The translations under genes were made by a program, and so were the position numbers. DNA of 64,000 nt from Defluviitaleaceae bacterium (GTDB lineage: Bacteria > Bacillota > Clostridia > Lachnospirales > WQUN01). Under the pieces are notes generated by a model. That model searched no databases, was not told the origin of the DNA, and worked only from the letters and a program-made list of their open reading frames with translations. This document shows, piece after piece, positions 48,197 through 63,770 of this stretch (position 1 is the stretch's first letter; every line of letters begins with the position of its first letter). The stretch is from NCBI GenBank assembly GCA_009780315.1, contig WRAH01000006.1, forward strand, positions 1 through 64,000, in the 5' to 3' direction.

Positions 48197-50380
48197 TTAA
48201 CCGTCCAACCGTTGACGCTTGACTAGTTCTGCAAACTTCCCATTAAGAGACATTAACTGCTCGTACGTGCCATCCTCAACAATTTTCCCTTCTTCCAGCA
48301 TAATCACTCTATCACATTGGCGTATTGTAGATAGTCTATGTGCTATAACAATTCGTGTGCATTTTAAGCCATCTAAAGACTGTGAAACGTGCTTTTGAGT
48401 TATATTGTCCAAGGCAGAAGTTGCTTCATCAAGCAAAAGAATTTTAGGCTTTGGTGCAAGCGCACGAGCAATCAATACACGTTGCTTTTGACCACCAGAT
48501 AATCCGCCGCCACCATCTGAAACCAATGTATGCATACCCATTGGCATATTACGAATATCCTCGGCTATACCAGCCATTTCTGCCGCTTCCCAAGCTTCAT
48601 CTATAGTCAGCAATGGTGCGGATACAACAATATTTTCGTAAATTGAACCCGTCATAAGTTTGCCGTTTTGAATTACACAACCAATAGATTTGCGAAGAGA
48701 TTTTAAGTCTATAGATTTCATATCTTGGGCATCATAATAAACAGCACCCCTATGTGGTTCTTCAAAACCTAGTAACAGCCGCAGTAAAGTAGATTTTCCA
48801 CACCCAGAAGCGCCTACAATCGCAACATATTGACCTTTGTTAATTTTTAAAGATAAATTATTTAACACATAGGGCATATTTTCATTATAGCGGAAGAACA
48901 CATTATTTATTTCAATGCTTCCAGACAAACGATTTATCATCTTTTTCCCTACAGATGTTTCTGGCTCTACATCCATAATCGGTTTGGCTAAATCCATGAT
49001 GGGTCTAATTGATGCAACTGTTGTTGAAAGCGAAGTCAAAGACATCACTGCCCCAGAAAGCATTGCATATGCGGCTGCAAAAGCCATATATTCTGCTACC
49101 GCAATATCAGCAGAAGCTGATATTGAAAATAGCACGATACTACCCACTGCTGTTGTCGTACCCACCAAAACCGCTGAAATCCTTAAAAAGATTGGAGGCG
49201 CATAGGTCAGTGCAGCATTTTCAGAATATTTTTTTGCCCATTTAGAAAACGCTCGACGTTCGCTTCCCGAAATTTTAATTTTCTGCACACCTGAAACCAG
49301 AGAAAATACCAACCCGTGCAACTTTGCCGCACCAGCAAGTTGCTTCCTAGAAATTTTAACTTCAAATAATGCAGCAATACTCGTTATTGCTAATGAAATT
49401 GCAACAATAATTAAAGCAGGTATGGTCAGTACAGGTGCAATAAACGCAATTTGCCCAATAAAAACAAATGAAAATAACCCAGTTAGCCCTGCACCAAAAA
49501 TAACTTGAATTAAAACGGTACACAATGAGGAAATACCATGTAACCGCTGTGAAATTTCACCTGTTGTGTAATCTTTGAAAAAAACTGCTGGTAAGGATAA
49601 CAATCTACTCATGGCAGCAGACTGTACGGCGACTTCTGCCTTAGTTGATATACGCGCTTGCACTATATTTTGCGTAATCCGAATCAGCATAGTTGATATT
49701 GTTGCACCAACCAACAGGAATGATATTGCCATAAGATGTGAATATCCACCCATTGGAATGACATGACCAAAAATTTGCTGATTTGCATAAGGTATGAGCA
49801 TTCCAAGAACAGTTGCTGTTAAAATGGTTGCTACAATGATTACATAATCGGAAACAGCTAAAGTCCTTGCCATATAAATAAGTAAATCTACTATGCTAAT
49901 TTTATGGCTTGGCAATGGATTATAAAAACAATATGCATCAATGCCTATATTTTTTGCATTTTCTTTGTTTACTTTTATACGCTTATTTAGTTCATGGTCA
50001 AAGTATATATATCCAGACATTTTTCCTGGCAGAAGACTAATTATCTGTCCGCTATGAGTCTGTCCTAGTAGTGGACCAATGCCATCTTTATACCATTTTC
50101 CTGTAAGCTCCACTCTGCGACGCTTTATGCCCGACGGATGTAGGAAAAATTCTAGCTGGTCATCTACAGATTCGATATTGTCCGGCAATGCACCCGGCGT
50201 AATATGGTAATATTTTAATATTTCTTCTATGGCATTTTTTGCGGTTTCTCTGTCCGACAAAAATGTCTCTGCTTCACGTTTATGCCCCATTACCACAGAA
50301 GCCAGTTGAACAAAGCTTAATTCAAAAGCACTTTGGTCATTTTTAATTCTATTTGATATTTGGTCGCTATACAAACCCAT
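48197..50380 (-). CDS. NHLM-type peptide exporter, permease/ATPase without peptidase, 727 aa
   Basis: The N-terminal 165 residues form a cytoplasmic domain without C39 motifs. Membrane helices lie at about 170-460. The C-terminal ATPase has Walker A GASGCGKST near residue 515, signature LSGGQKQR and Walker B ILLLDEATSALDN. This matches the second ABC protein of NHLM (nitrile-hydratase-leader-associated) export systems, which works with a peptidase-containing partner. It lies 28 bases after that partner gene. Confidence 0.88.
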   Translation of the reverse strand: MGLYSDQISNRIKNDQSAFELSFVQLASVVMGHKREAETFLSDRETAKNAIEEILKYYHITPGALPDNIESVDDQLEFFLHPSGIKRRRVELTGKWYKDGIGPLLGQTHSGQIISLLPGKMSGYIYFDHELNKRIKVNKENAKNIGIDAYCFYNPLPSHKISIVDLLIYMARTLAVSDYVIIVATILTATVLGMLIPYANQQIFGHVIPMGGYSHLMAISFLLVGATISTMLIRITQNIVQARISTKAEVAVQSAAMSRLLSLPAVFFKDYTTGEISQRLHGISSLCTVLIQVIFGAGLTGLFSFVFIGQIAFIAPVLTIPALIIVAISLAITSIAALFEVKISRKQLAGAAKLHGLVFSLVSGVQKIKISGSERRAFSKWAKKYSENAALTYAPPIFLRISAVLVGTTTAVGSIVLFSISASADIAVAEYMAFAAAYAMLSGAVMSLTSLSTTVASIRPIMDLAKPIMDVEPETSVGKKMINRLSGSIEINNVFFRYNENMPYVLNNLSLKINKGQYVAIVGASGCGKSTLLRLLLGFEEPHRGAVYYDAQDMKSIDLKSLRKSIGCVIQNGKLMTGSIYENIVVSAPLLTIDEAWEAAEMAGIAEDIRNMPMGMHTLVSDGGGGLSGGQKQRVLIARALAPKPKILLLDEATSALDNITQKHVSQSLDGLKCTRIVIAHRLSTIRQCDRVIMLEEGKIVEDGTYEQLMSLNGKFAELVKRQRLDG

Positions 50381-50408: not shown

Positions 50409-52583
50409 TTATTCTGTGGTAACAAGTTCAGCATAGTACCCATCTGTTTTAATTAGCTCTTCATGGGTTCCACGCTCTACAATAAGCCCTTTATTCATCA
50501 CAATTATTTCATCACAGCTACGAATTGTAGATAATCTATGGGCAATAATAATACAGGTAATCCCTCTATTGCGTATTGCATTAGCTACGTCATTTTCTGT
50601 TTTAGCGTCCAACGCACTGGTTGCTTCATCCATAATAAGTATGGCAGGGTCACTAGCCAAAGCCCTCGCAATTTCCAAACGCTGGCGTTGACCACCTGAA
50701 AAGTTTTTACCGTCTTCAGCCAACATATGTTTGTAACCATCTGACCTTTGAAGAATATCGTGGTGGATACCTGCATCCTTGCTTGCAAGTATGACTTCAA
50801 ATTCCTCTATGGATGTATCCCAAAGTTTAACATTATCCGATACAGTGTCTTCAAAGATAGTGATATCTTGGTCAACAACGGCAATAGAACTTGTAAATGA
50901 ATGACGGTTAACGTCTGTTATATGCACATCATCAAAAAGAATTTCACCACTCCAAGGCTTATACAGTCCAGAAACTAATTTAGCCAAAGTTGATTTGCCG
51001 CACCCGCTAGACCCTACAATGGCTACAGAAGAGCCTGCCTTTAATGTCATATTAAAATCCTTAATTAGTGGCGGTGCTAGTCTGTTATAACCAAATGAAA
51101 CATCCTTTAACTCAAGGTTGCCAGTTAACTTATTAGGAGCATCAGTATGCTCAGAAACATCTTCCTTTACATCTGGTTCATATTTGAACACATCCTCTAC
51201 ACGCTCCATGGTTACACGCATTTCTTGAATAGATTGCGTTGCGTCTATAAAGGATTCTACTGGTGCTGTAAATGCCAGTAGGAAACTTTGAAAAGCCAAA
51301 AGCATACCCGCAGTAAATGCGCCTGTTAAAATGAGATATGCACCTGTGATTAAGATAGCAACACGAGAAAGTGATAGTACAAATTCAGGTATTGCGCCTA
51401 AGTACACATTGGTTTTTATAAAATCCACTTGTGACCTGTTTACAGCGGCTCTAATGCCTGCCCATTGCTCAAAAAAGCCATTTTCTGCACCAGACGATTT
51501 TATGGTTTCAATCATTTGTATACCGCCTAATGTAAGCCCTCTAAGCTTGCCCTCATCTCTCATTTGTGTGCGGGCAATTTTTATACGTCTATTAGAAATT
51601 ATTTTTGCCATTACCATATTGATTACAATGGCAACAACCCCTATAGCCGTCAGAAGCAAACTATAACGCACCATGACTATAAAGTAGAAGATAGTAAGTA
51701 CAAAGTTCAAAAATAGTGGTGCTAATTTAGCAATGAGCGTTTCGGCAATGGTTTCATTATATTTAAGCCTACCAACTATTTCGCCAGGCATACGTTGAGA
51801 GAAAAAACTCATAGGTAGGCGCAAAACATGCCATAGAAACACCGAATTTGCCACAATTGCTAATTTACCGCGTATTTTAAGCAAGTACAGTGCATTGATT
51901 AAATACACAACAAAAGACACAACTGCCAGCCCTATCATACCCAAGATAAGGGGTCTAAACCATTCTGGGTTATACCCAGTCAAAACCCTATCTAAAAAAA
52001 CCCTAGACAATACAGGATTTATAATACCGATTAAGGATATTAAAAACATGGTGAAAATAACAAAAACAATTGGAGCAACTGTACCCTTTAACCTGTCACG
52101 AGCAAATTTTAATACACTTTGCCTTTGCCCCTCTGGTTTAAAATTTGTGTCTGGCTCAAAAGTCATGTAAACACCAGTAAATGACTTATCAAAAACCGGC
52201 AGCGGAACCTTTATCTCACCAGACGCAGGGTCGTTGATGTAGGCAAACTTGTCCGAGAATCCTGTTAATACTACAAAGTGATTAAAGTTCCAATGGATTA
52301 TACAAGGCAAATGAGCATCTTTTACAGCATCTACGCCACCACGGAACCCCCTAGATTCAAGCCCATAATTTCGCCCAGCCATAATAATATACTTTGCATT
52401 AGAACCGTCACGGCTTACAGCGCATTCTTCACGCACTTTTTCTAAAGGAATCCACTTTTTATAGTATGCCAAAATCATAGCCAAACACGCTGCGCCACAT
52501 TCCAGCATTTCCATTTGCATAATCACTGGTACTTTTACGCGCGGCTTTGGCTTCCTAGTTTTATTTGCACTCACTTTAATCAC
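50409..52583 (-). CDS. NHLM-type peptidase/permease/ATPase exporter, 724 aa
   Basis: The N-terminal C39 peptidase is intact: Cys29 in MLECGAACLAM, His102 in NHFVVLTGF and Asp118 in INDPASGE. It cleaves double-glycine leaders. Six membrane helices and an ATPase follow with GSSGCGKST, FSGGQRQR and LIMDEATSALD. This is the cleaving transporter of NHLM systems and can act on the double-glycine leader encoded at 61717-62016. The start is a GTG at 52583 overlapping the preceding stop by 4 bases, so it is coupled to the mini-HlyD gene. Confidence 0.93.
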   Translation of the reverse strand: MIKVSANKTRKPKPRVKVPVIMQMEMLECGAACLAMILAYYKKWIPLEKVREECAVSRDGSNAKYIIMAGRNYGLESRGFRGGVDAVKDAHLPCIIHWNFNHFVVLTGFSDKFAYINDPASGEIKVPLPVFDKSFTGVYMTFEPDTNFKPEGQRQSVLKFARDRLKGTVAPIVFVIFTMFLISLIGIINPVLSRVFLDRVLTGYNPEWFRPLILGMIGLAVVSFVVYLINALYLLKIRGKLAIVANSVFLWHVLRLPMSFFSQRMPGEIVGRLKYNETIAETLIAKLAPLFLNFVLTIFYFIVMVRYSLLLTAIGVVAIVINMVMAKIISNRRIKIARTQMRDEGKLRGLTLGGIQMIETIKSSGAENGFFEQWAGIRAAVNRSQVDFIKTNVYLGAIPEFVLSLSRVAILITGAYLILTGAFTAGMLLAFQSFLLAFTAPVESFIDATQSIQEMRVTMERVEDVFKYEPDVKEDVSEHTDAPNKLTGNLELKDVSFGYNRLAPPLIKDFNMTLKAGSSVAIVGSSGCGKSTLAKLVSGLYKPWSGEILFDDVHITDVNRHSFTSSIAVVDQDITIFEDTVSDNVKLWDTSIEEFEVILASKDAGIHHDILQRSDGYKHMLAEDGKNFSGGQRQRLEIARALASDPAILIMDEATSALDAKTENDVANAIRNRGITCIIIAHRLSTIRSCDEIIVMNKGLIVERGTHEELIKTDGYYAELVTTE

Positions 52584-52810: not shown

Positions 52811-53251
52811 TTAACTAGATTTTAGATATTTTTCTACAAGTAAAATATTGTGACCGTTTTCGTATTTGTAAATTTGTGTGTCCGTAAATTTTTTAGAAAG
52901 CATGATGCCTAAACCACCTATTTCACGGTCAGAAATATGTGCATCCAAATCTGAAATTTTATGTTCAAGTGGATTATATGGTTTGCCAGCATCACGAAAT
53001 TCCATTGTCACCTTATTTTGCTCTGGACAAAGAAAAATCTTTAGAAGGAACGTACCGGGGGCATCATCATAGGCATATTGGAAAATATTAAAAGCCAGTT
53101 CTTCACCCACAAGTGTGAGTTGCTTTGTATCTCGTGGATTGCCGACATCCTTAATACATAATTCTACAAAATCCATCACTCTATCCATGTTATTCGCCTT
53201 TGTGAGTACTTCCATCCCATAGTTACTCATTTCCATTTCAAATTTCAGCAT
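52811..53251 (-). CDS. RsbW/SpoIIAB-type anti-sigma-like serine kinase, 146 aa
   Basis: An HATPase domain of the GHKL type for protein serine kinases: VGEELAFNIFQYAYDD holds the N-box, and the G-box region is SDREIGGLGIMLSKKFTD. Such kinases phosphorylate STAS antagonists and hold target proteins inactive. ATG 53251 has AGGAGGAGG upstream, and longer starts in frame are rejected. It lies between the STAS gene and the mini-HlyD gene in the same operon. No sigma factor gene is adjacent, so its client may be something else. Confidence 0.85.
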   Translation of the reverse strand: MLKFEMEMSNYGMEVLTKANNMDRVMDFVELCIKDVGNPRDTKQLTLVGEELAFNIFQYAYDDAPGTFLLKIFLCPEQNKVTMEFRDAGKPYNPLEHKISDLDAHISDREIGGLGIMLSKKFTDTQIYKYENGHNILLVEKYLKSS

Positions 53252-53264
53252 AAGTATCCTCCTC

Positions 53265-53570
53265 CTAGCTTGATGTTTTAAACTCAATAAAATCTGCAAG
53301 TCCGCATATATCTAATACTTCCATTACTTCTTCGTTGACATCTACCATTACAATGGTCATACCTGATGCTATTTTTTGTTGTGCAAAAATAATTACACGT
53401 ATCCCCGAACTAGAGATATAAGTAAGTTCTGCACACTCAAAAACTATGGTTGATATATCCTTGCCCTTTAATTCAGCAAGTGCGTCCATAAGTTTTGGTG
53501 CGCGGGCAAAGTCTAGTTTGCCTGCAAGCGTTACATATGTTTCCTTGCCTTCTTTAATTGAAAACTCCAT
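53265..53570 (-). CDS. STAS-domain antagonist (RsbV/SpoIIAA-like), 101 aa
   Basis: A complete STAS domain with LAGKLDFARAPKL and the phosphorylation loop ELTYISSSGIRVI, where Ser55 before Gly56 is the expected phospho-site. In its unphosphorylated form it would release the client of the RsbW-like kinase. ATG 53570 has GAGGTGG upstream. It is flanked by the phosphatase and kinase genes, giving the whole partner-switch in one operon. Confidence 0.88.
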   Translation of the reverse strand: MEFSIKEGKETYVTLAGKLDFARAPKLMDALAELKGKDISTIVFECAELTYISSSGIRVIIFAQQKIASGMTIVMVDVNEEVMEVLDICGLADFIEFKTSS

Positions 53571-53592
53571 AAGCCACCTCATATTTTATGAT

Positions 53593-55305
53593 TTATATTA
53601 TGGACAACATTAACATAGTAATGTCGTCAAATTGGGGTTCACCATCTGCAAACTTATCAATATCTGCTTTTATATGTGTAAGTGAATCCCTTGGTTTTAA
53701 ATTTGCAGTGCGATTAAGTATGGTTTCAAGACGTATTTTTCCATACAAATTACCTTGACAATCATTTGCTTCTGTAACGCCATCTGTATAAAGGAATAAC
53801 TTGTCACCTTGCTGCATTTTTATGAATGACTGCTTATATTTGACACCATCCATACCAGCAAGCATCAAATTTTTTCTTGTCGTCAAAGGATGAAATGTAT
53901 CATCGGCTTCCTTTATTAGAGGCGGGTCATGACCTGCATTAGAATATATCAATTCCAAAGTGCTAAGTTTAAGAATACCCATCCATGCTGTTACAAACAT
54001 TGCATTTTCGTTGCCTTCACATAGTTGACTGTTTACTTTTGTGAAAACATCCATTGGCTCAATGCCATTTCTCGCCCAATTATTTATAAGTGTTCTTGTT
54101 ATAACCATAAATAGTGCAGCAGGAATACCTTTGCCCGACACATCTGCAATAACTATCCCTAAGTGGTCACTATCAATCATAAAGAAGTCGTAGAAATCGC
54201 CGCCTATTTCTTTTGCCGGTTGCATAATTGCATATATTTCAAATTCCTCTCGTTCTGGGAAAGCTGGAAAGACATTCGGCAACATATCCGCCTGCATTTG
54301 CTTGGCTACATTTAATTCAGTGGCTATGCGTTCGTTTTCAGTTGTAATTTTTGTTAGGTTTTGTATATATATGTCCAAATCCAAAACCATTGTTTTGAAA
54401 GCTTCTGCCAAAATACCGGCTTCACCTTTAATTCCGATGAGAACATCACATTCTTTAACAATTGCGACACTATCTTTCTTCTCATGACCACCATTTACAA
54501 AATTCTTTGCTATTTGTGCGATGGACTCTACTGGAATTGTAATTTTCCTCTCACAATACCATAAAAACACAATTGTAATCATATAAAAAGCCAACAAGTT
54601 TACTGCAATATACATATATATGCGCATCCACATAGTAACAGGGTCTGATATTGCATAGGATAGCTCTATCGCAGAAAATATGCCTATTAGCCCACCTGAA
54701 ACAACACCCGCTATTAAGAACACTAAAATCAGACGCTCATTGATTGAAAGTGTTACTTGATTTTTGGTTAATTTTCTAGCCGACATAAATATAATGATTG
54801 GAATACCCAAAACAATACAAAATACAAAGTTGTTTAAAAACAACATCAAAGTTGATGTTGATACAAATGGACTTACACCGATACTTTGCATAATCGAACC
54901 TAGAAATGCTGCCATAATCACTGCATTTACCAATACAATGACAATATACTGCACTACACTTTTTACATTATTTAATCGAATTGGGCGAGATGGGTCGCCT
55001 ACTAATTCGTTCATGGATTTCCACATGAGATATGGCAAAATGCCGTATGTAAACTGCCCCACAAACCCTAATGCAATCATTAGTAGGGAATATCCAGATA
55101 CAATATCTGCAATAAGGTTGCCTAATGCACAGCCTAATACCCCAAACGGGCCTAGCATTAACCCTAATGCCGGCGGTAACGCGCTTGGGCGAATACCCAA
55201 CACTGCCATTACATTAAAATATTGACGGAATATCATAGTTACTGCAAAAAAAATAATTGCCGTAGCGGCTGTAATTTGAATTTTCTTAAAAAAAGTGCTT
55301 TTCAT
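53593..55305 (-). CDS. Membrane-bound SpoIIE-type PP2C phosphatase, 570 aa
   Basis: The N-terminal 260 residues are a multi-helix membrane sensor region (six or seven helices, opening with FRQYFNVMAVLGIRPSALPPALG). A linker and short coiled coil lead to the SpoIIE/RsbU phosphatase domain with AKEIGGDFYDFFMIDSDHLG, IADVSGKGIPAALFM, SNAGHDPPLI and LYTDGVTEA. It dephosphorylates STAS antagonists, here most likely the product of the next gene. It is the first gene of the operon running back to 47263. The membrane region could sense a small molecule or the peptide itself. Confidence 0.88.
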   Translation of the reverse strand: MKSTFFKKIQITAATAIIFFAVTMIFRQYFNVMAVLGIRPSALPPALGLMLGPFGVLGCALGNLIADIVSGYSLLMIALGFVGQFTYGILPYLMWKSMNELVGDPSRPIRLNNVKSVVQYIVIVLVNAVIMAAFLGSIMQSIGVSPFVSTSTLMLFLNNFVFCIVLGIPIIIFMSARKLTKNQVTLSINERLILVFLIAGVVSGGLIGIFSAIELSYAISDPVTMWMRIYMYIAVNLLAFYMITIVFLWYCERKITIPVESIAQIAKNFVNGGHEKKDSVAIVKECDVLIGIKGEAGILAEAFKTMVLDLDIYIQNLTKITTENERIATELNVAKQMQADMLPNVFPAFPEREEFEIYAIMQPAKEIGGDFYDFFMIDSDHLGIVIADVSGKGIPAALFMVITRTLINNWARNGIEPMDVFTKVNSQLCEGNENAMFVTAWMGILKLSTLELIYSNAGHDPPLIKEADDTFHPLTTRKNLMLAGMDGVKYKQSFIKMQQGDKLFLYTDGVTEANDCQGNLYGKIRLETILNRTANLKPRDSLTHIKADIDKFADGEPQFDDITMLMLSII

Positions 55306-55372: not shown

Positions 55373-55403
55373 GCTGTAATACATATAAGCTTTCGTAGTA
55401 ACT
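55373..55403 (-). promoter_or_regulatory. Candidate LytTR (AgrA) site upstream of the NHLM export operon
   Basis: Read on the minus strand, AGTTACTAC (55403 to 55395) is identical to the agrDB repeat. Exactly 22 bases on is TATTACAGC (55381 to 55373), which keeps 5 of 9 positions. The 22-base period and the strong-then-weak order fit LytTR binding. The 293-base intergenic region 55306-55598 also holds the divergent promoter of agrA; no gene is seen in it. Confidence 0.5.
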
Positions 55404-55598
55404 TACATTTTAGTGTTCATGTTTTACTCAACTATGACACAATACACGATGAGTAGACAAAAATCTTTTTGAAAGTTAAAATATATAATACATAAAAAAA
55501 TATGCAAAGCAACATGCTATAAAATGTTTAAGTATACGCATATTAAACGCTTTCTGTCTCAAAAAAATGTTAAGTAAAACGAACTAAGGAGGTATAAT

Positions 55599-56339
55599 AT
55601 GAAATTGTCAATTGCTATCTGTGAAGACGATATGAAAATTAATGCCGAACTTGAGTATACCTTAGAAGCTATACTAAAGAAGCTAAACATTAAATATGAG
55701 ATAGATGTCTATTTTTCTGGTGAAAAACTATGCAAGAAATTAGAAGCAGGTCAAAACTATAACCTGATTTTCCTTGATATCGAATATGGTGAGGGGAAAA
55801 TAAATGGCGTGGAGATTGGCAATATTATCCGTGTTATCCATCAAAACAATTCTATATCCATTGTATATATTTCTTGGGAAAGTCATTATTCTATAAATTT
55901 GCACAATACACAGCCTTTGAATTTTCTCATTAAGCCTTTGAAGTATGAAAAAATAGAAGAAGTTGTATATAAGTATTTGACTTTAGCTAGACTCTGGTCT
56001 AGTTACTTCACTTATAAGCTTGGCTATGAAACTTATAGAAAACAGGTTAAGGATATAGCATATGTAGAAAGTCGTGATAGAAAATTAATTATTCATTTAG
56101 CTAATGGTAAACAAAAAGAATTTTATGGCTCACTAAAAAAGGTATACATTGAGCAATTGCAAAAATTTGACTTCCTATTTATACATGCAGCATACGCCGT
56201 TAATTATGATTTTATTTCTCAATATAAATATACGACTATATGTATGAACCCTGGTGACGTCATTTTACCTATAAGCCAAAATAGGAGGACTGAAGTAAGA
56301 AAACGTTTTCTTCTTATAGAAAGTAAAAGGGGAGGATAA
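55599..56339 (+). CDS. AgrA-like response regulator with LytTR DNA-binding domain, 246 aa
   Basis: The receiver domain (residues 1-125) has the acidic pair in AICEDD and phospho-acceptor Asp60 in IFLDIEYGEG. The LytTR domain (about 140-240) opens with VKDIAYVESRDRKLIIHLANG and contains the expected FLFIHAAYAVNYDFI. Length and layout match AgrA/VirR. AAGGAGG precedes the ATG. It is followed after 4 bases by its sensor kinase and, beyond a terminator, by agrD and agrB. It likely binds the direct repeats described at 57717-57748. Confidence 0.88.
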   Translation: MKLSIAICEDDMKINAELEYTLEAILKKLNIKYEIDVYFSGEKLCKKLEAGQNYNLIFLDIEYGEGKINGVEIGNIIRVIHQNNSISIVYISWESHYSINLHNTQPLNFLIKPLKYEKIEEVVYKYLTLARLWSSYFTYKLGYETYRKQVKDIAYVESRDRKLIIHLANGKQKEFYGSLKKVYIEQLQKFDFLFIHAAYAVNYDFISQYKYTTICMNPGDVILPISQNRRTEVRKRFLLIESKRGG

Positions 56340-56343
56340 TAAG

Positions 56344-57633
56344 GTGGATATTTATGTTGTGGTTTATTTAATATCTAATGCACTAACAGCATTTGCCCTT
56401 GAAAGATTCATGAAAGTATTTTTTGAAAAGAAAAGAGTGCAGACTTGGATTGCGGTTATTCCATTTCTAGTTTATTTTATTGCATCCAGCTCAATATTTT
56501 TATTGCTTGGTATACCTATTATCTCTTTGTTTGTTAATATTCTAACTATTTTTGTGATATCGTTAATTTATGAGTCAACTTTAGTTAGGCGATTATCTGC
56601 AACGGCATGTATCGTTCTATTTACGGTCATCACTGATATGATTGCAGTTCTTTTGACAGACAATTCACACGTGAATCATTTTGTCCCATTTGAGTATAGA
56701 GATGTCTTTGGTTTTATATCATGGGGATTATCAGTGTACTTAATGGCTTTGTTACTTCAACGATTTAAAAATGTTAGAAGAGGTGTGATAGTACAGCCTT
56801 TTCACTGGATTATTACTATTTATATACCCACTTCATCTATATTTATAATTTCATTACTTATTGCTTCATCAGAGATACCTCAAGTTTTTTCAGTCTTCGC
56901 AATAGCTATGATATTGGTTATAAACGTACTTGCGTTTTATTTATGTGACGCACTTTCTGCAGCCTATGAAAATCAACTTCAATCAAAATTGTATGCACAA
57001 GAAAAAGAACATTACCTCACCCAATGTCAAATGATGCAAGATTCTGTAGACATGATGAAGTCTTTTAGACATGATGTAAAGCTTCATTTTGGTACATTGA
57101 AAGGCATGGCCGCAGAAAATGAAATTGAACTCATTTCAAAATATTTAAGTACATTATCGGATTATGTGAAAAGTAGCGAGGTATACAGCGAAACAGGAAA
57201 TTTGGCACTGGATAGCATAATCAATTACAAGCTTAGAGATGCTAATGAAAGAAATATTAAACTCACTATAAATCTCATATCCATTCCAAAAATAATAGAT
57301 ATTGAAATAATTGATATGACAACTATCTTGGGCAATCTTTTAGACAATGCCTTGGATGCATTAGAAAAATTGGATGAAAAATGGATAAAACTAAGTGCCA
57401 GATATAAAAAGGGAACTTTGATTATTGAAGTTACGAATCCTTTTGATGGGAATATAAAGTTTAAATCCATAAAAAAAGAAGATAAAATGCATATTGCATC
57501 CTCAAAATTTGGAAATAATCATGGATATGGATTAAAAAATATTCGTAAAGCCTTAATCAAATATAATGGAGATATGGAAGTAACCCATGATAACAATGTT
57601 TTTTCTGTAAAATTACTGCTCATTTTAGCATAG
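56344..57633 (+). CDS. AgrC-like peptide-sensing histidine kinase, 429 aa
   Basis: Six to seven membrane helices in the first 210 residues form the peptide receptor. The phospho-acceptor His is in MMKSFRHDVKLHFG. The GHKL ATPase has NLLDNALDAL and HGYGLKNIRKALIKY. This is the HPK10-type architecture of AgrC. The start is a GTG at 56344 with GGGGAGG upstream. It is followed by a terminator at 57654-57703, so agrAC and agrDB are separate transcripts. Confidence 0.88.
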   Translation: MDIYVVVYLISNALTAFALERFMKVFFEKKRVQTWIAVIPFLVYFIASSSIFLLLGIPIISLFVNILTIFVISLIYESTLVRRLSATACIVLFTVITDMIAVLLTDNSHVNHFVPFEYRDVFGFISWGLSVYLMALLLQRFKNVRRGVIVQPFHWIITIYIPTSSIFIISLLIASSEIPQVFSVFAIAMILVINVLAFYLCDALSAAYENQLQSKLYAQEKEHYLTQCQMMQDSVDMMKSFRHDVKLHFGTLKGMAAENEIELISKYLSTLSDYVKSSEVYSETGNLALDSIINYKLRDANERNIKLTINLISIPKIIDIEIIDMTTILGNLLDNALDALEKLDEKWIKLSARYKKGTLIIEVTNPFDGNIKFKSIKKEDKMHIASSKFGNNHGYGLKNIRKALIKYNGDMEVTHDNNVFSVKLLLILA

Positions 57634-57653
57634 TAATGTTTTAATCATATAAA

Positions 57654-57703
57654 AAATGCCCCTTTGAGAATAGCTACTGAGGCTAATTTATAAAGGGGCA
57701 TTT
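57654..57703 (+). terminator. Terminator between agrC and agrD
   Basis: AAATGCCCCTTT at 57654-57665 pairs perfectly with AAAGGGGCATTT at 57692-57703 across a 26-base loop. Confidence 0.7.
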
Positions 57704-57716
57704 GAAATTAAACATG

Positions 57717-57780
57717 AGTTACTACACAAGTACTAATAAGTTACTACATATACTACATTAGATAACGGAAATTGGATAAT
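57717..57780 (+). promoter_or_regulatory. Candidate AgrA-dependent promoter of agrDB
   Basis: AGTTACTACA occurs twice in direct orientation at 57717-57726 and 57739-57748, 22 bases apart. LytTR regulators bind such repeats at one-and-a-bit to two helical turns. GATAAT at 57775-57780 is the probable -10. The -35 position (ACTACA) is poor, as expected for an activator-dependent promoter. It lies 68 bases upstream of agrD. Confidence 0.7.
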
Positions 57781-57847
57781 CTATTAGTAGATTAAATGTA
57801 TCGTACCATTCTAAAACTTAGAATCAGCATTGAAAGAATGTCATTAT

Positions 57848-57994
57848 ATGAAGAAAAGTATCAAGAAAAAAGCAAGTCAGTACATTGCGAGTACAATACG
57901 AAAAGTTGTAGAGTCTAATGTCAATACGACTTGTTCCTTTTTCTTATATCAGAACACATTACCCGAAAAAGTTAAAAACTTGCGCAAATTTTAA
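57848..57994 (+). CDS. agrD: AgrD autoinducer precursor, 48 aa
   Basis: A small gene in the canonical position. A basic amphipathic leader (KKSIKKKASQYIASTIRKVV) is followed by NTTCSFFLYQNTLPEKVK and the charged tail NLRKF, the three-part layout of AgrD-type cyclic-lactone peptides. Cys29 would form the thiolactone. By comparison with clostridial AgrD (CLWFT followed by HQP) the ring is probably CSFFL, with YQNTLPE as the recognition tail. The TAA overlaps the agrB ATG (TAATG), so the two are coupled. A recognisable ribosome site is not obvious. Confidence 0.9.
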   Translation: MKKSIKKKASQYIASTIRKVVESNVNTTCSFFLYQNTLPEKVKNLRKF

Positions 57995-58569
57995 TGTTTA
58001 TGAAAAATGTTGCAGTAAAAATTACTGACCGCTTAGAAAGGCAAGGTATATTTGAGCCTACCGATAGAGAAATTTATCTTTTTGGTACACAACTTGGATT
58101 AAACCTCTTGCTTCACTTAATGACTATGACATTAGTTGGTTTAATGATAGGGTCATTTTGGCATATAGTGATTTTCTTGCTCGCATATATGCCTTTAAGA
58201 AGTTTTTCCGGCGGATACCATGCAAAAACACAGTTAAAGTGCTATATCATATCTACTATAATGATTGCATTTGTAGGTCTTGCGTCTAGGTTTATAACCT
58301 TCAATAGCATTTTACTTGGTGTGCTTCTTTTGATGTTTGGTATAGTCATTATGTTAATTTCACCAATAGGCAATAAAAATAAATCACTTGATGATTTGGA
58401 AATAAAAGTATATGGGAGAAAAGCCCGCTTCATATGTATAGTTGAATTATCTGTAGCTATAATTACCTTACTTATAGGTATGCAGTTCATCACAACAGGT
58501 ATTTTTTGGGCTTTTTCCATGGTATTATTACTATTGGTACTAGAAAAATTGTTTGGCAGTAAAATATAA
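57994..58569 (+). CDS. agrB: AgrB autoinducer-processing protease, 191 aa
   Basis: This membrane peptidase cleaves AgrD C-terminally and forms the thiolactone. The catalytic motif SFSGGYHAKTQLKC holds His76 and Cys83, the conserved AgrB pair. Four to six membrane helices and a length of 191 aa fit the family. The start overlaps the agrD stop, and ATG 58000 is an alternative. A strong terminator follows. Confidence 0.92.
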   Translation: MFMKNVAVKITDRLERQGIFEPTDREIYLFGTQLGLNLLLHLMTMTLVGLMIGSFWHIVIFLLAYMPLRSFSGGYHAKTQLKCYIISTIMIAFVGLASRFITFNSILLGVLLLMFGIVIMLISPIGNKNKSLDDLEIKVYGRKARFICIVELSVAIITLLIGMQFITTGIFWAFSMVLLLLVLEKLFGSKI

Positions 58570-58618
58570 AAAGAGCTTGTTTAGGTCATTTAAAATGTGT
58601 AACCTAAACAAGCTCTTT
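58570..58618. terminator. Hairpin after agrB
   Basis: AAAGAGCTTGTTTAGGT and ACCTAAACAAGCTCTTT form a perfect 17 bp stem. It lies between convergent agrB and the radical SAM gene. Confidence 0.88.
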
Positions 58619-58677
58619 ATCCTCATGTCGCGAGAGAAACTTGAGAATGAACCGGGGTTCACTGGAAAATAGACTTC

Positions 58678-59982
58678 TTATTTCATATGTTTTTGCTCAT
58701 AGTGAATCTCTAATAGGTCTTTTATATGGCTTTTGATATACGTGCATGTTTCTCGCTTTACCATATCGCGATTGCTATACATGCGTGCTTTTGGACATCC
58801 TCCATTACATATAGGGAAAAAGAAACACGCTAGACAAGTTTTGCTTTCTAAATTAGAGACACCTACCATGCTATTTGCAATGAGTGCTATGTTCCAAATT
58901 TTGGTGTTATTTATATTGCCTACAATTTCTTTGTCAATGCCTAAATCATCCCAACATTTATAAATTTCTCCGTGAGGGCCTACGACATATGCATTTTTTT
59001 TACTTAAATAGCATCCCCCTATTTTCTTTATGGGGAATATTTCAAGGGCATGTATACCATAGTCACGAGCTAATTCAAAAATAAACTTTCCTTTTTTATA
59101 TGGGTCGAAATGACAACCAATGTCTGGACTTTGCTTATCATCTACAAAACCTGGGTAAACGCGTATGCTTCTATCAAATTTATCTGAGTATATATCTTTG
59201 AAGTACTGATATACCTCGACAAATTCACTACTGTTATTGGTGTCTACATTTACCCGTAAGCTAAGGCATCCATGCCAATCCGAGTTCATTAACTTATTTA
59301 TATTTTCAAGAATTTTGTCGTACGTACCTTCTTTGTTAATTAAATGACGACGACTATCGTGTGTTTTTTTGATGCCATCAATCGTAATTTGTACATGCGA
59401 AATCTTTAGTTGGTTTAGATTTTCTATAACATCACCAGAAAGTTCATATCCATTTGTCACCATGTCAGCAGAATATTTAATGCCTAGCGCATCTATTTTT
59501 TTACTAATATTTTTAATTTTATTAAACTCAAGTAGAGGTTCTCCACCATACCAAGTAATAAATACTTTATTTACTAATTTATGATTTTTAATAAACGTTA
59601 TAAGATTGTCTTCAATTTCATCAGACATTTTTGATGGAACTCTATTTTTCTCATAACAATATGCGCAATCAAAATTACATTCCTTTGTTGGTGCTACTGT
59701 TAAATAAAGCTTGTCTGATGAATAATTTATTGTCAGTGCTTTCATCTTCAGTATATTTACAAGGTCATCATCTTGCCCATCATCAATAAGAAATCCTCCA
59801 AGCCTTAGCTTAAAAAATAAATCGGGCTTATCTGAAAAATCCATATTGGGACTCTTCTGAATTTGTTTAGCAATTTCTGCTGTTTTATCATCCATTTGCA
59901 CGAATGTATTAGAACCAGAGTTATACAATAACCAGCCATTTCTCTTAGATTCAAACATTAAATTGTATCGTGACCACTCCAT
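58678..59982 (-). CDS. SPASM-domain radical SAM peptide maturase, 434 aa
   Basis: A hydrophilic N-terminal region of about 90 residues, likely for peptide recognition, precedes the radical SAM motif CNFDCAYC (Cys102, 106, 109). The C-terminal SPASM domain has all seven auxiliary cysteines: Cys324, Cys343, Cys383, Cys386, Cys392, Cys396 and Cys413 in the CX2CX5CX3C arrangement, so two extra iron-sulfur clusters are expected. Such enzymes install thioether or other crosslinks in ribosomal peptides. ATG 59982 has AAAGGAAA upstream. It lies downstream of the precursor operon, beyond a terminator. The NHLP precursor at 61717 with two cysteines is the obvious candidate substrate (inference). Confidence 0.88.
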   Translation of the reverse strand: MEWSRYNLMFESKRNGWLLYNSGSNTFVQMDDKTAEIAKQIQKSPNMDFSDKPDLFFKLRLGGFLIDDGQDDDLVNILKMKALTINYSSDKLYLTVAPTKECNFDCAYCYEKNRVPSKMSDEIEDNLITFIKNHKLVNKVFITWYGGEPLLEFNKIKNISKKIDALGIKYSADMVTNGYELSGDVIENLNQLKISHVQITIDGIKKTHDSRRHLINKEGTYDKILENINKLMNSDWHGCLSLRVNVDTNNSSEFVEVYQYFKDIYSDKFDRSIRVYPGFVDDKQSPDIGCHFDPYKKGKFIFELARDYGIHALEIFPIKKIGGCYLSKKNAYVVGPHGEIYKCWDDLGIDKEIVGNINNTKIWNIALIANSMVGVSNLESKTCLACFFFPICNGGCPKARMYSNRDMVKRETCTYIKSHIKDLLEIHYEQKHMK

Positions 59983-60099
59983 AAAGGCATTTCCTTTCTC
60001 TTTTATAAATAATAACCAATAGCACTGGTTATCCAACAATTGCACCTACAACATAAGTATCACAAGATATTAAATTGATAACACTTTTTTGCATTGCCC

Positions 60100-60105
60100 A
60101 TTATA
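60100..60105 (-). promoter_or_regulatory. Candidate -10 for the radical SAM gene
   Basis: TATAAT on the minus strand at 60105-60100 would give a transcript start near 60093 and a 110-base leader. A good -35 is not visible. The 60046-60348 stretch also contains the terminator at 60175-60212 and the short ORF at 60273-60344. Confidence 0.4.
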
Positions 60106-60174
60106 ATACCATGGGCATTTGTTATTGCTGGATTGCGTAATCCCATTTCTGTAATCAAGGATTATTATGTTCAA

Positions 60175-60212
60175 AAATAACGATGACATCTACAAGACTA
60201 TCATCGTTATTT
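60175..60212. terminator. Hairpin ending the precursor operon
   Basis: AAATAACGATGA at 60175-60186 pairs perfectly with TCATCGTTATTT at 60201-60212. It separates the precursor operon from the radical SAM gene. Confidence 0.78.
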
Positions 60213-60272
60213 AGTGTATAGCTATCTTCAAAACCCTTGCAAGTGGTAGGTATCCAAATGTGATAATGATAG

Positions 60273-60344
60273 TCAATGCAATATAACTAATGTCTTAAAT
60301 TTGCGCAATGCTTTGCGATTGATACCGAATAGTTCCTTACCCAT
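60273..60344 (-). CDS. Very short coupled ORF, 23 aa, possibly truncated by a frameshift
   Basis: GGAGGATAA, which includes the stop of the HExxH gene, is placed 8 bases before an ATG at 60344. The frame gives MGKELFGINRKALRKF and ends after 23 residues. Read one base out of phase, the downstream sequence continues as YIALTIIITFGYLPLARVL, a clear membrane helix, ending near 60212. A membrane peptide of about 44 residues broken by one indel, or a programmed shift, is possible. Strong coupling to the preceding gene supports that something is translated. Confidence 0.45.
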   Translation of the reverse strand: MGKELFGINRKALRKFKTLVILH

Positions 60345-60348
60345 AACA

Positions 60349-61188
60349 TTATCCTCCATAGGTTAATAATTCTTTTTTACATAAAAAATCAATACGTTGA
60401 ATGTTGCTAAGTTGCAAAAAATCTTCACTTTTTGACCAATCTTCTATCCACGTTGACGCAAGATGTGCCAGTGTTTCTACAACTTTTGCTGCTGCTGGGC
60501 TTAAATTTTCTATATAAATTTGCATACGTCCTTGATGAAGAAATTTCATGAAATAATCTGCTTTATACCATGAAAACGATTCCCACATACCACAAAAATC
60601 TGCAATCAATTCATCATGCAAATTGTTTTGTGACGAACCATGAAATTGTTTGGTATAGTAGTGGGCGCATTCATGAAATTTACGCAATACCAAAGACTTT
60701 TTACGCCATATTGCATCATCTAGCCCTATTGATTCTGCGGGCAGGTTACTATAAGGTTTATGTGAGAGGATAATAAAACGATTTTGCTTTCCAAACGCAA
60801 AGGATGCACCTTGTTTTTTGATGTGGGGATATGGTTGACCTTTGTGTACGATATTTAAAACCAAACTCTCGAAATCAGTATCCGATGATGCAGTGATGAT
60901 GGGGATTTTCCCCGCAAAGGAATCATAAATTTCAAATTCTATTTCCTCTGGTTTATTAAAAGGAATTTGCAAATCACTTCGGACAAGATGTTGATTTATA
61001 GCAAATGCCACTCCATTTTCTTTGGCAGTGGTTAGCAGTGGTGTCCAGCGAGTCAAATATTCATCATCACTTGGTTTTGGACTGTATGAGAAGGCATTAG
61101 CCGTATACTCAAGCAAAGCGTCCATATCATCTGATGTTGCGCCTAACTTTTTTAAAATTGTTTTTTTATCATCTATTGATAAAATCAC
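60349..61188 (-). CDS. HExxH zincin-like protein of the peptide island, 279 aa
   Basis: I cannot name the family with certainty. Residues 172-176 read HECAH, followed 17 residues later by DELIADF (residues 192-198), a plausible third ligand, as in zinc-dependent peptidases. The rest is soluble, with no signal peptide or membrane helix, so the protein is cytoplasmic. The start is a GTG at 61188 with GGAGG upstream. It sits between the precursor/membrane-protein genes and the short ORF in one operon. It may trim the peptide or serve a non-proteolytic metal role (inference). Confidence 0.55.
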   Translation of the reverse strand: MILSIDDKKTILKKLGATSDDMDALLEYTANAFSYSPKPSDDEYLTRWTPLLTTAKENGVAFAINQHLVRSDLQIPFNKPEEIEFEIYDSFAGKIPIITASSDTDFESLVLNIVHKGQPYPHIKKQGASFAFGKQNRFIILSHKPYSNLPAESIGLDDAIWRKKSLVLRKFHECAHYYTKQFHGSSQNNLHDELIADFCGMWESFSWYKADYFMKFLHQGRMQIYIENLSPAAAKVVETLAHLASTWIEDWSKSEDFLQLSNIQRIDFLCKKELLTYGG

Positions 61189-61208
61189 GTGGTCAAACCT
61201 CCTTCACA

Positions 61209-61664
61209 TCATTGCCAATGCACTTCAATAGATACGTTTTCTGCTTCAACAAAAAGAATCCGCATTTCAATACGGCGAGATTCAAAAATATCTACAATAT
61301 AATCCCCAATCATTTCCTTGTGATTGCTTTCGCTTAAATCAAAAGTGTACGATACATTCCCTTGGGTTATTGTGAGTGACATCCCGCCGCTTGAAATACT
61401 ACTTTCCAAAAATAAATTGTCTAAGGTTATCTGATGAGGTTCAATAAAGATAGCGGCATTACCATTGGCTTCATCCGCAGAAAAATACCAGCCTTCACTG
61501 TTAGTCCTTTGAGAAACATTTGTAAATGTACCGGAACGTACACGTCTAATATCTCCTAAAAGACCCATTGAATTGATTATCAAAGGGGCACCAATGGATA
61601 ATATGAGCATTCCAACAAGGGATGCCAGTAAAATTTTTGTATATTTTTTTGAAGTTTTCTCCAT
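61209..61664 (-). CDS. Membrane-anchored extracytoplasmic protein, 151 aa
   Basis: I do not recognise the family. One N-terminal membrane helix (residues 11-33) anchors an outer domain of about 115 residues that reads as a beta-sandwich (SGTFTNVSQRTNSEGWYFSA, with alternating hydrophobic strands). It could be an immunity or product-binding protein because it lies directly downstream of the precursor gene in the same operon, though this is inference from position. GAGGAG precedes the ATG. Confidence 0.6.
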   Translation of the reverse strand: MEKTSKKYTKILLASLVGMLILSIGAPLIINSMGLLGDIRRVRSGTFTNVSQRTNSEGWYFSADEANGNAAIFIEPHQITLDNLFLESSISSGGMSLTITQGNVSYTFDLSESNHKEMIGDYIVDIFESRRIEMRILFVEAENVSIEVHWQ

Positions 61665-61716
61665 TGATTATCTCCTCAAATTGACTGCCTATGCCCATGA
61701 TTAAAGCTGTTATACA

Positions 61717-62016
61717 TTATTTGCAGGCATAAGCACCACAGTCACCATTGATGTCACTGTAGGCATTGATACCGCCTGCCACATTGTCCAAATCATCATC
61801 AGAAAGTTCACCTGACAACTGGGGTAGTGTAATGGTTAGTGAATGGTCATTTTCAATCACATTGATATTGTAGCCTTCTGGAATGGCTTTGCCTGTCAGC
61901 TTTTCAATGGCTTGAATAGGGTTTTTTAACAATTCTGCCTTAAACGTCTTGTCAACTGTGGCAAGTTCTTGCACCTTTAAGTATGTTGCAGTAATTTCTG
62001 CTTGTGTCCAATTCAT
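61717..62016 (-). CDS. NHLP-type leader peptide natural-product precursor, 99 aa
   Basis: The nitrile-hydratase-like leader is clear: FKAELLKNPIQAIEKLTGK followed by PEGYNINVIENDHSLTITLP and a SGELSDDDLDNVAGG end. The double glycine at residues 81-82 marks C39 cleavage. The predicted core is INAYSDINGDCGAYACK, 17 residues, with Cys93 and Cys98 four residues apart. The leader class matches the NHLM exporter encoded at 48-52 kb, and the cysteines suit a radical SAM thioether or a disulfide. AGGAGG precedes the ATG. First gene of the precursor operon. Confidence 0.9.
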   Translation of the reverse strand: MNWTQAEITATYLKVQELATVDKTFKAELLKNPIQAIEKLTGKAIPEGYNINVIENDHSLTITLPQLSGELSDDDLDNVAGGINAYSDINGDCGAYACK

Positions 62017-62096
62017 GATTTTCCTCCTAGAAAATTAAATTTCATTCAACGACTTCATGTGACTTTATTTCTTTTATTTCATAAAATTTTGCTAAT

Positions 62097-62161
62097 ATTA
62101 TCATGAACCACTTGTGAATATAGAAAATTGGTCATAATGCATATTACCTTATGTAGCAACT
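62097..62161 (-). promoter_or_regulatory. Candidate AgrA-dependent promoter of the precursor operon
   Basis: On the minus strand AGTTGCTAC (62161 to 62153) matches the agrDB repeat in 8 of 9 positions. Exactly 22 bases later CATTATGAC (62139 to 62131) keeps 5 of 9. GATAAT, identical to the agrDB -10, starts 37 bases after the second repeat begins (36 in agrDB). The -35 is again poor (TTCTAT). Confidence 0.6.
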
Positions 62162-63602: not shown

Positions 63603-63770
63603 GCCGTGGTGGCAGGTTTAACCTGTTTGTGCTGAGTGATGGCTGTTGCCCATCACTTGCGTAAGTCCTTTGATGTCTTGTACACATCATAGACCCCACG
63701 GCTCCCGCTTTGTTGCTACCGCGTGTACATATCTTATCCTATCTTTTCTAAAATGTAAAGTTTTTTTGAC
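63603..63770 (+). ncRNA. Candidate structured small RNA of about 170 nt
   Basis: GCCGTGG at 63603-63609 pairs with CCACGGC at 63696-63702. Inside lie three perfect hairpins: CAGGTTTAACCTG (63613-63625), AGTGATGG/CCATCACT (63635-63657) and TGATGT/ACATCA (63671-63689). This four-way junction begins at the predicted transcript start of a strong promoter. No ribosome site or convincing coding frame is present and no plus-strand gene follows. It does not look like tRNA, tmRNA, SRP RNA or a canonical 6S RNA. The 3' end may be the weak T-run at 63761 or the terminator at 63775-63828. Confidence 0.5.

Follow-up and report, generated by a model that had tools for sequence, protein, structure and literature searches.

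A direct repeat, probably an AgrA operator, at the agr locus and RiPP gene clusters of a Defluviitaleaceae bacterium

Paired repeats at three promoters

The first 64,000 nucleotides of contig WRAH01000006.1 (GCA_009780315.1, Defluviitaleaceae bacterium), referred to here as the window, hold a complete agrABCD locus together with genes for the production and export of a ribosomally synthesized and post-translationally modified peptide (RiPP; Table 1). The promoters of agrDB, of the RiPP precursor operon and of the phosphatase/export operon are each preceded by a 9-bp direct repeat, here called the box. We propose, with a probability of roughly 0.87, that these repeats are operators of the LytTR regulator AgrA, which would activate the promoters so marked.

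At all three sites the two 9-mers are separated by 13 bp, within the 11-13 bp of LytTR/AgrA direct repeats, and each pair reads in the direction of its own operon. The original prediction had described a doubled AGTTACTAC at 22-base spacing before agrD, pairs at the precursor and export operons that are oriented with transcription and carry a weaker copy 22 bases on, and a GATAAT element 36 or 37 bases past the start of the second repeat at agrDB and at the precursor; all of these were found again at the positions given in Table 1. Published LytTR sites lie immediately before promoters and consist of 9-bp repeats with gaps of 11-13 bp (PMC6193735); the RgaR sites of Clostridioides difficile show a G-51/G-72 geometry (PMC10602386). 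The geometry observed here fits both, which favours a reading as AgrA operators.

The surrounding genes are those expected of an agr system and of an NHLP RiPP cassette. AgrA with its LytTR domain, AgrC with its GHKL domain and AgrB lie in one locus, and their matches to PF04397, PF14501 and PF04647 exceed the family cut-offs. When AgrA was compared with the PDB by phmmer, only receiver domains and no LytTR chain came back. The agrD frame contains NTTCSFFLYQNTLPEKVKNLRKF before agrB, with a Cys ring residue and a charged C-terminal tail, a pattern that recurs in genomes G034 and G084. The leader and the two dedicated exporters score above the cut-offs of TIGR03793, TIGR03796 and TIGR03797. The radical-SAM gene lies some 300 nt away from the precursor operon and has no box of its own; the 300-nt gap between it and the DUF7005 gene holds a small open reading frame (ORF) led by a ribosome-binding site (60190-60340, minus strand; MGKELFGINRKALRKFKTLVILH), possibly a further peptide.

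Table 1. Features of the agr and RiPP/export island, in window coordinates.
Feature	Position	Strand	Evidence or remark
NHLP ABC exporter 2	48197..50380	-	TIGR03797 728 bits, over cut-off
NHLP peptidase/ABC exporter 1	50409..52583	-	TIGR03796 913 bits, over cut-off
Two ORFs, putative ATPase of anti-sigma type and STAS-like antagonist	52811..53582	-	predicted from sequence
SpoIIE-type phosphatase with QueT-like membrane part, leads export operon	53593..55305	-	PF07228 154.6 bits
Candidate AgrA-type operator of phosphatase/export operon, AGTTACTAC-N13-TATTACAGC	55373..55403	-	AGTTACTAC at 55403-55395; divergent to agrA
agrA, response regulator with LytTR domain	55599..56339	+	PF04397 37.3 bits, cut-off 22.6
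agrC, GHKL sensor kinase	56344..57633	+	PF14501 74.7 bits; NCBIfam AgrC-type match
Candidate AgrA-type operator of agrDB, AGTTACTAC-N13-AGTTACTAC	57717..57747	+	half-sites 57717-57725 and 57739-57747; period 22
-10 GATAAT of agrDB	57775..57780	+	36 nt past start of second repeat
agrD, signal precursor, MKKSIKKK...NVNTTCSFFLYQNTLPEKVKNLRKF	57848..57994	+	reading frame; by-eye alignment with AgrD of G034 and G084
agrB	57994..58569	+	PF04647 124.8 bits; sole AgrB of genome
Radical SAM/SPASM peptide maturase	58678..60045	-	PF04055; best TIGR04463 216.9 bits, under its cut-off
DUF7005 protein	60349..61188	-	PF22541 170.7 bits
151-aa protein, no named family, N-terminal hydrophobic stretch	61209..61664	-	
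NHLP-leader RiPP precursor, GG site, core INAYSDINGDCGAYACK	61717..62016	-	TIGR03793 56.3 bits, cut-off 50.9
-10 GATAAT of precursor operon	62097..62102	-	37 nt past start of second repeat
Candidate AgrA-type operator of RiPP precursor operon, AGTTGCTAC-N13-CATTATGAC	62131..62161	-	AGTTGCTAC at 62161-62153

Rarity of the repeat and its conservation in relatives

The exact 9-mers AGTTACTAC and AGTTGCTAC have no further occurrence within the 64 kb. A third-order Markov model predicts 0, 0, 0.12 and 0.36 occurrences of AGTTACTAC-N13-AGTTACTAC per genome at zero, one, two and three mismatches, respectively. The pattern TTRCTACAHAA-N11-TTACTRC is found in this genome five times exactly and twice with one mismatch, against Markov expectations of 0 and 0.12, and 31 other genomes pooled contain it three times at one mismatch. 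Our genome-wide survey combined whole-genome pattern searches with modest stretches, matrix scans being applied to chosen stretches; because the TATGAGTTRCTACAYAA context gave no excess at three mismatches (40 against 50 in the control), no match beyond two mismatches was used. A consensus in the style of the relatives returned eight sites genome-wide, seven of them the known ones and the eighth (C1) in an ordinary locus, with one site in the reversed control. Pattern matches at C4, C5, C10 and C1 fall within coding sequence or unremarkable loci, and we regard them as chance hits.

A matrix made from ten sites of other genomes and scored on 127,940 window positions ranks the export site first (27.3 bits), the precursor site second (24.1) and the agrD site third (20.0); the next-best window position reaches 14.8 bits and the maximum of the reversed window 11.8. 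The box is also present in the divergent agrA intergenic region of the near relative G034 (32.3 bits) and likewise of the relative G100 (29.2), against a best reversed-sequence score of 12.1; in L100 and L110 it occupies the same position divergent to agrA as the export site. Motifs were also sought de novo, by expectation maximization with at most one site per sequence, in 24 agrC-agrD gaps taken from other Clostridia; this genome and G034 contributed none of them. The best motif, TTTTTACAAAAAnATATATnAATTTTgACAA, is a direct repeat with a 22-bp period and was assigned in 20 of the 24 gaps; together with the G034 and G100 intergenic regions, these gaps place the repeat at the same position in relatives that have the regulator. 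Because this search recovers the same 22-bp repeat, the element is, to judge from its sequence, a conserved operator of clostridial agr loci. Within the window the second-best match of the de novo motif is the agrD site and the third-best the export site; its top match, at 63764, is probably a chance hit.

The nearest named relatives found in an AgrA search are metagenome-assembled genomes labelled Defluviitaleaceae, such as WRBD01000035 (the same locus as G034), whose isolate names suggest that they come from termite guts (compare PMC7024585); the window probably stems from a bacterium of this kind. Several genomes that lack AgrB (L225, L209, L216, L219, L228) carry the box after agrC and before a protein of 135-150 amino acids; these proteins form one unnamed family of sigma-factor-type appearance.

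A dispersed set of peptide loci

The genome holds six further good sites (C2:195618, C14:28038, C20:25327, C63:5205 on the minus strand, C35:20554 and C15:29350) and a weaker one at C8:53500 (minus strand). The original prediction had called for a full-genome scan to show whether the repeats are limited to the island promoters; the motif is rare, but it is not confined to the island. Read to the letter, paired matches elsewhere are what that prediction had named as its own refutation, yet since they mostly precede peptide genes they enlarge the regulon: the AgrA idea stands, now extended to peptide loci scattered over the genome. The C35 box precedes a complete second RiPP cassette with a Nif11-like leader (a weak match, under the family cut-off), a radical SAM protein and two ABC exporters; the C8 box lies before a YydG-like radical SAM gene and a GG-type peptide, and the C63 box before a secreted Cys-rich peptide. 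The C2, C14 and C20 boxes stand upstream of a short hydrophobic peptide and a regulator of 350-365 amino acids. As at agrD and the precursor, GATAAT occurs at 36 or 37 nt at C2 and C14, and C35 has TATACA at 36; at the export operon, C63 and C20 no -10 element is found at 36 or 37 nt, the nearest one lying at other offsets. The C15 box (L024:1501-1660) faces the 3' end of a radical-SAM gene and has TATACT at 38 nt and no ORF; a strong terminator hairpin (z -4.6) follows some 60 nt past it, so that the box could drive a very short RNA, or the hairpin may simply terminate the opposite gene.

The regulators at C2, C14 and C20 belong to a group with a predicted Rgg-like TPR fold and a C-terminal HTH domain, of which the genome encodes at least 14 copies (L001, L005, L006, L011, L168 and L169-L177). 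A ribosome-binding site and a hydrophobic peptide of 27-36 amino acids, of the form MF...PFxPFG...PGxF, lie upstream of 12 of 14 copies, with tandem repeats in four; the peptide genes are adjacent and may have a signal role. The box stands directly upstream of four copies, and because ten others have none, agr would govern only a subset. Box-like 17-mers beside a truncated copy (L069, C12:118) and within a degraded one (L064, C8:63599) are probably decayed members of the regulon. In genomes of other families, several distant homologues (L150, L151, L163, L155, L164, L165 and L158) likewise have, 100-140 nt upstream, a gene for a short hydrophobic peptide.

An AlphaFold2 model of a peptide-linked regulator reached good confidence, with a predicted local distance difference test score of 87.8. 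In this model residues 5-228 superpose on the peptide-binding TPR domain of known receptors (Rgg144, Z 16.9; PlcR, 14.3; Rgg2, 14.2) and residues 234-299 align with an HTH_3 protein at 0.9 A, whereas a Foldseek search by itself yielded nothing at E <= 0.001. The boxed regulators thus appear, on modelling grounds, to share the TPR fold of the RRNPP receptors (Rgg, PlcR, Rap), and they too have a short peptide gene immediately upstream. In RRNPP receptors, however, the optional HTH domain is N-terminal (PMC12700828), while HTH_3 lies here at residues ~234-300 of 355, and a published RRNPP survey discarded clusters with an N-terminal TPR region (PMC10075063). The swapped-order family with its adjacent peptides therefore falls outside current RRNPP definitions.

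The probable reader of the repeats

In the proposed mechanism AgrB would cut and cyclise AgrD, and AgrC would sense the product. Phosphorylated AgrA would then bind the two 9-bp half-sites, which occupy the same face of the DNA at a distance of two helical turns, and activate the promoter just downstream, whose -10 element stands 36-38 nt from the second half-site. The predicted regulon comprises agrDB itself, which would establish positive feedback, the NHLP RiPP precursor operon and probably the phosphatase/NHLP exporter operon, joined by the unlinked RiPP cassette at C35, the Cys-rich peptide at C63 and the pairs of short peptide and TPR-HTH regulator at C2, C14 and C20. What can be read from the sequence itself is where the sites lie, how rare they are, which genes adjoin them and that the agrD site is conserved across Clostridia; AgrA binding, activation, peptide sensing and the identity of the signal are what we infer from them. 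The original prediction went further and had AgrA control the whole island. AgrA as the binder is favoured by its LytTR domain, the 20 of 24 gaps and the G034 and G100 intergenic regions, but control of the whole island is not established, because the export site has no clear -10 element and the radical-SAM gene has no box.

Several observations weigh against assigning the repeats to AgrA. The second copies at the precursor and export sites share only five of nine bases with AGTTACTAC, and such weak copies are, taken alone, poor evidence; the export promoter moreover has no -10 element 36-37 nt from its second repeat. The matrix from other genomes is partly circular, its ten sites having first been chosen by a matrix from this genome, which is why the de novo search was run, and the precursor site is absent from the top eight window matches of the de novo motif. 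The boxes at C2, C14 and C20 belong to paralogous copies, are not independent and count as one line of evidence. Finally, C59 encodes an AgrA/AgrC-like pair that could use these sites as well.

Another LytTR regulator, most plausibly the C59 pair, is unlikely to be the reader of the boxes, alone or together with AgrA. Although the genome encodes seven LytTR domains and the regulator at C59 shares 51% identity with AgrA, nothing box-like occurs near C59 (best matrix score 7.7), the agr locus itself bears three boxes, conservation of the box tracks the agrC-agrD gap, and the C-terminal loops differ (SRHRR against SQNRR). The C59 pair (L068:187-2186; 51% and 43% identical to AgrA and AgrC) has no AgrB, AgrD or box and adjoins a fragment of a hydrogenase-like gene; the relatives often carry orphan pairs of this kind. 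Still less probable is that the TPR-HTH regulators bind the boxes, regulating themselves and acting on agr and RiPP genes, as the box immediately upstream of four copies might suggest: we reject this on account of the ten copies without a box, and G034 and G100 have the box and no detected TPR-HTH homologue, agrD across Clostridia bears the same repeat, and HTH_3 proteins usually bind palindromes rather than 22-bp direct repeats. A chance likeness among AT-rich promoter sequences, which would leave the three island sites unrelated, would accommodate the imperfect second half-sites at two promoters but is next to negligible, since expected counts fall far below those observed, the position is kept in relatives, and the matrix ranks of 1-3 together with the de novo motif already contradict it.

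The half-site seen here (AGTTRCTAC) is unlike the AgrA box of Staphylococcus aureus. The arrangement nevertheless resembles agr P2/P3 of that species in its LytTR regulator and in having two direct repeats just ahead of the signal operon's promoter (PMC4227749), but the genes it would control here belong to RiPP cassettes and peptide/receptor pairs. The boxes of Clostridium perfringens VirR and C. difficile RgaR are clostridial LytTR direct repeats two turns apart as well; RgaR targets agrB1D1 together with a handful of small loci, one of them a small RNA, and in both species agr does not drive its own signal operon, which was proposed to be general in clostridia (PMC10602386), whereas here a complete agrABCD carries a box in the agrC-agrD gap. 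The streptococcal LytTR Regulatory Systems HdrRM and BrsRM likewise have direct repeats before bacteriocin-type genes (PMC6193735), but a membrane inhibitor replaces AgrC/AgrD, and the half-sites are of the ACCACTTAC type with a mostly 12-bp spacer. For the LanM-like CA_C0082 of Clostridium acetobutylicum, the passages searched describe agr control of a modified-peptide-type gene adjoining agrCA (PMC10301443) and contain no AgrA operator; here, a shared operator joins several unlinked peptide loci. Nothing relevant emerged from literature searches on NHLP peptides under agr control.

LytTR direct repeats as a class of operator have been described before, and so has the logic of agr feedback and bacteriocin control (PMC4227749, PMC6193735). 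New are the half-site, its breadth at agrD across Clostridia and the prediction that two RiPP cassettes and the swapped-order peptide/receptor pairs are under common control. The conserved agrD box speaks against a general lack of autoregulation in clostridial agr systems, as had been suggested (PMC10602386). The candidate element offers a testable agr operator for uncultured Clostridia and would tie agr to RiPP production by one shared site. We further speculate, at about even odds, that agr sits atop a second, intracellular peptide layer, in which AgrA would induce a subset of the ~14 swapped-order peptide/receptor pairs along with two radical-SAM RiPP cassettes; if this is true, the swapped-order receptors would represent a new branch of RRNPP-type signalling.

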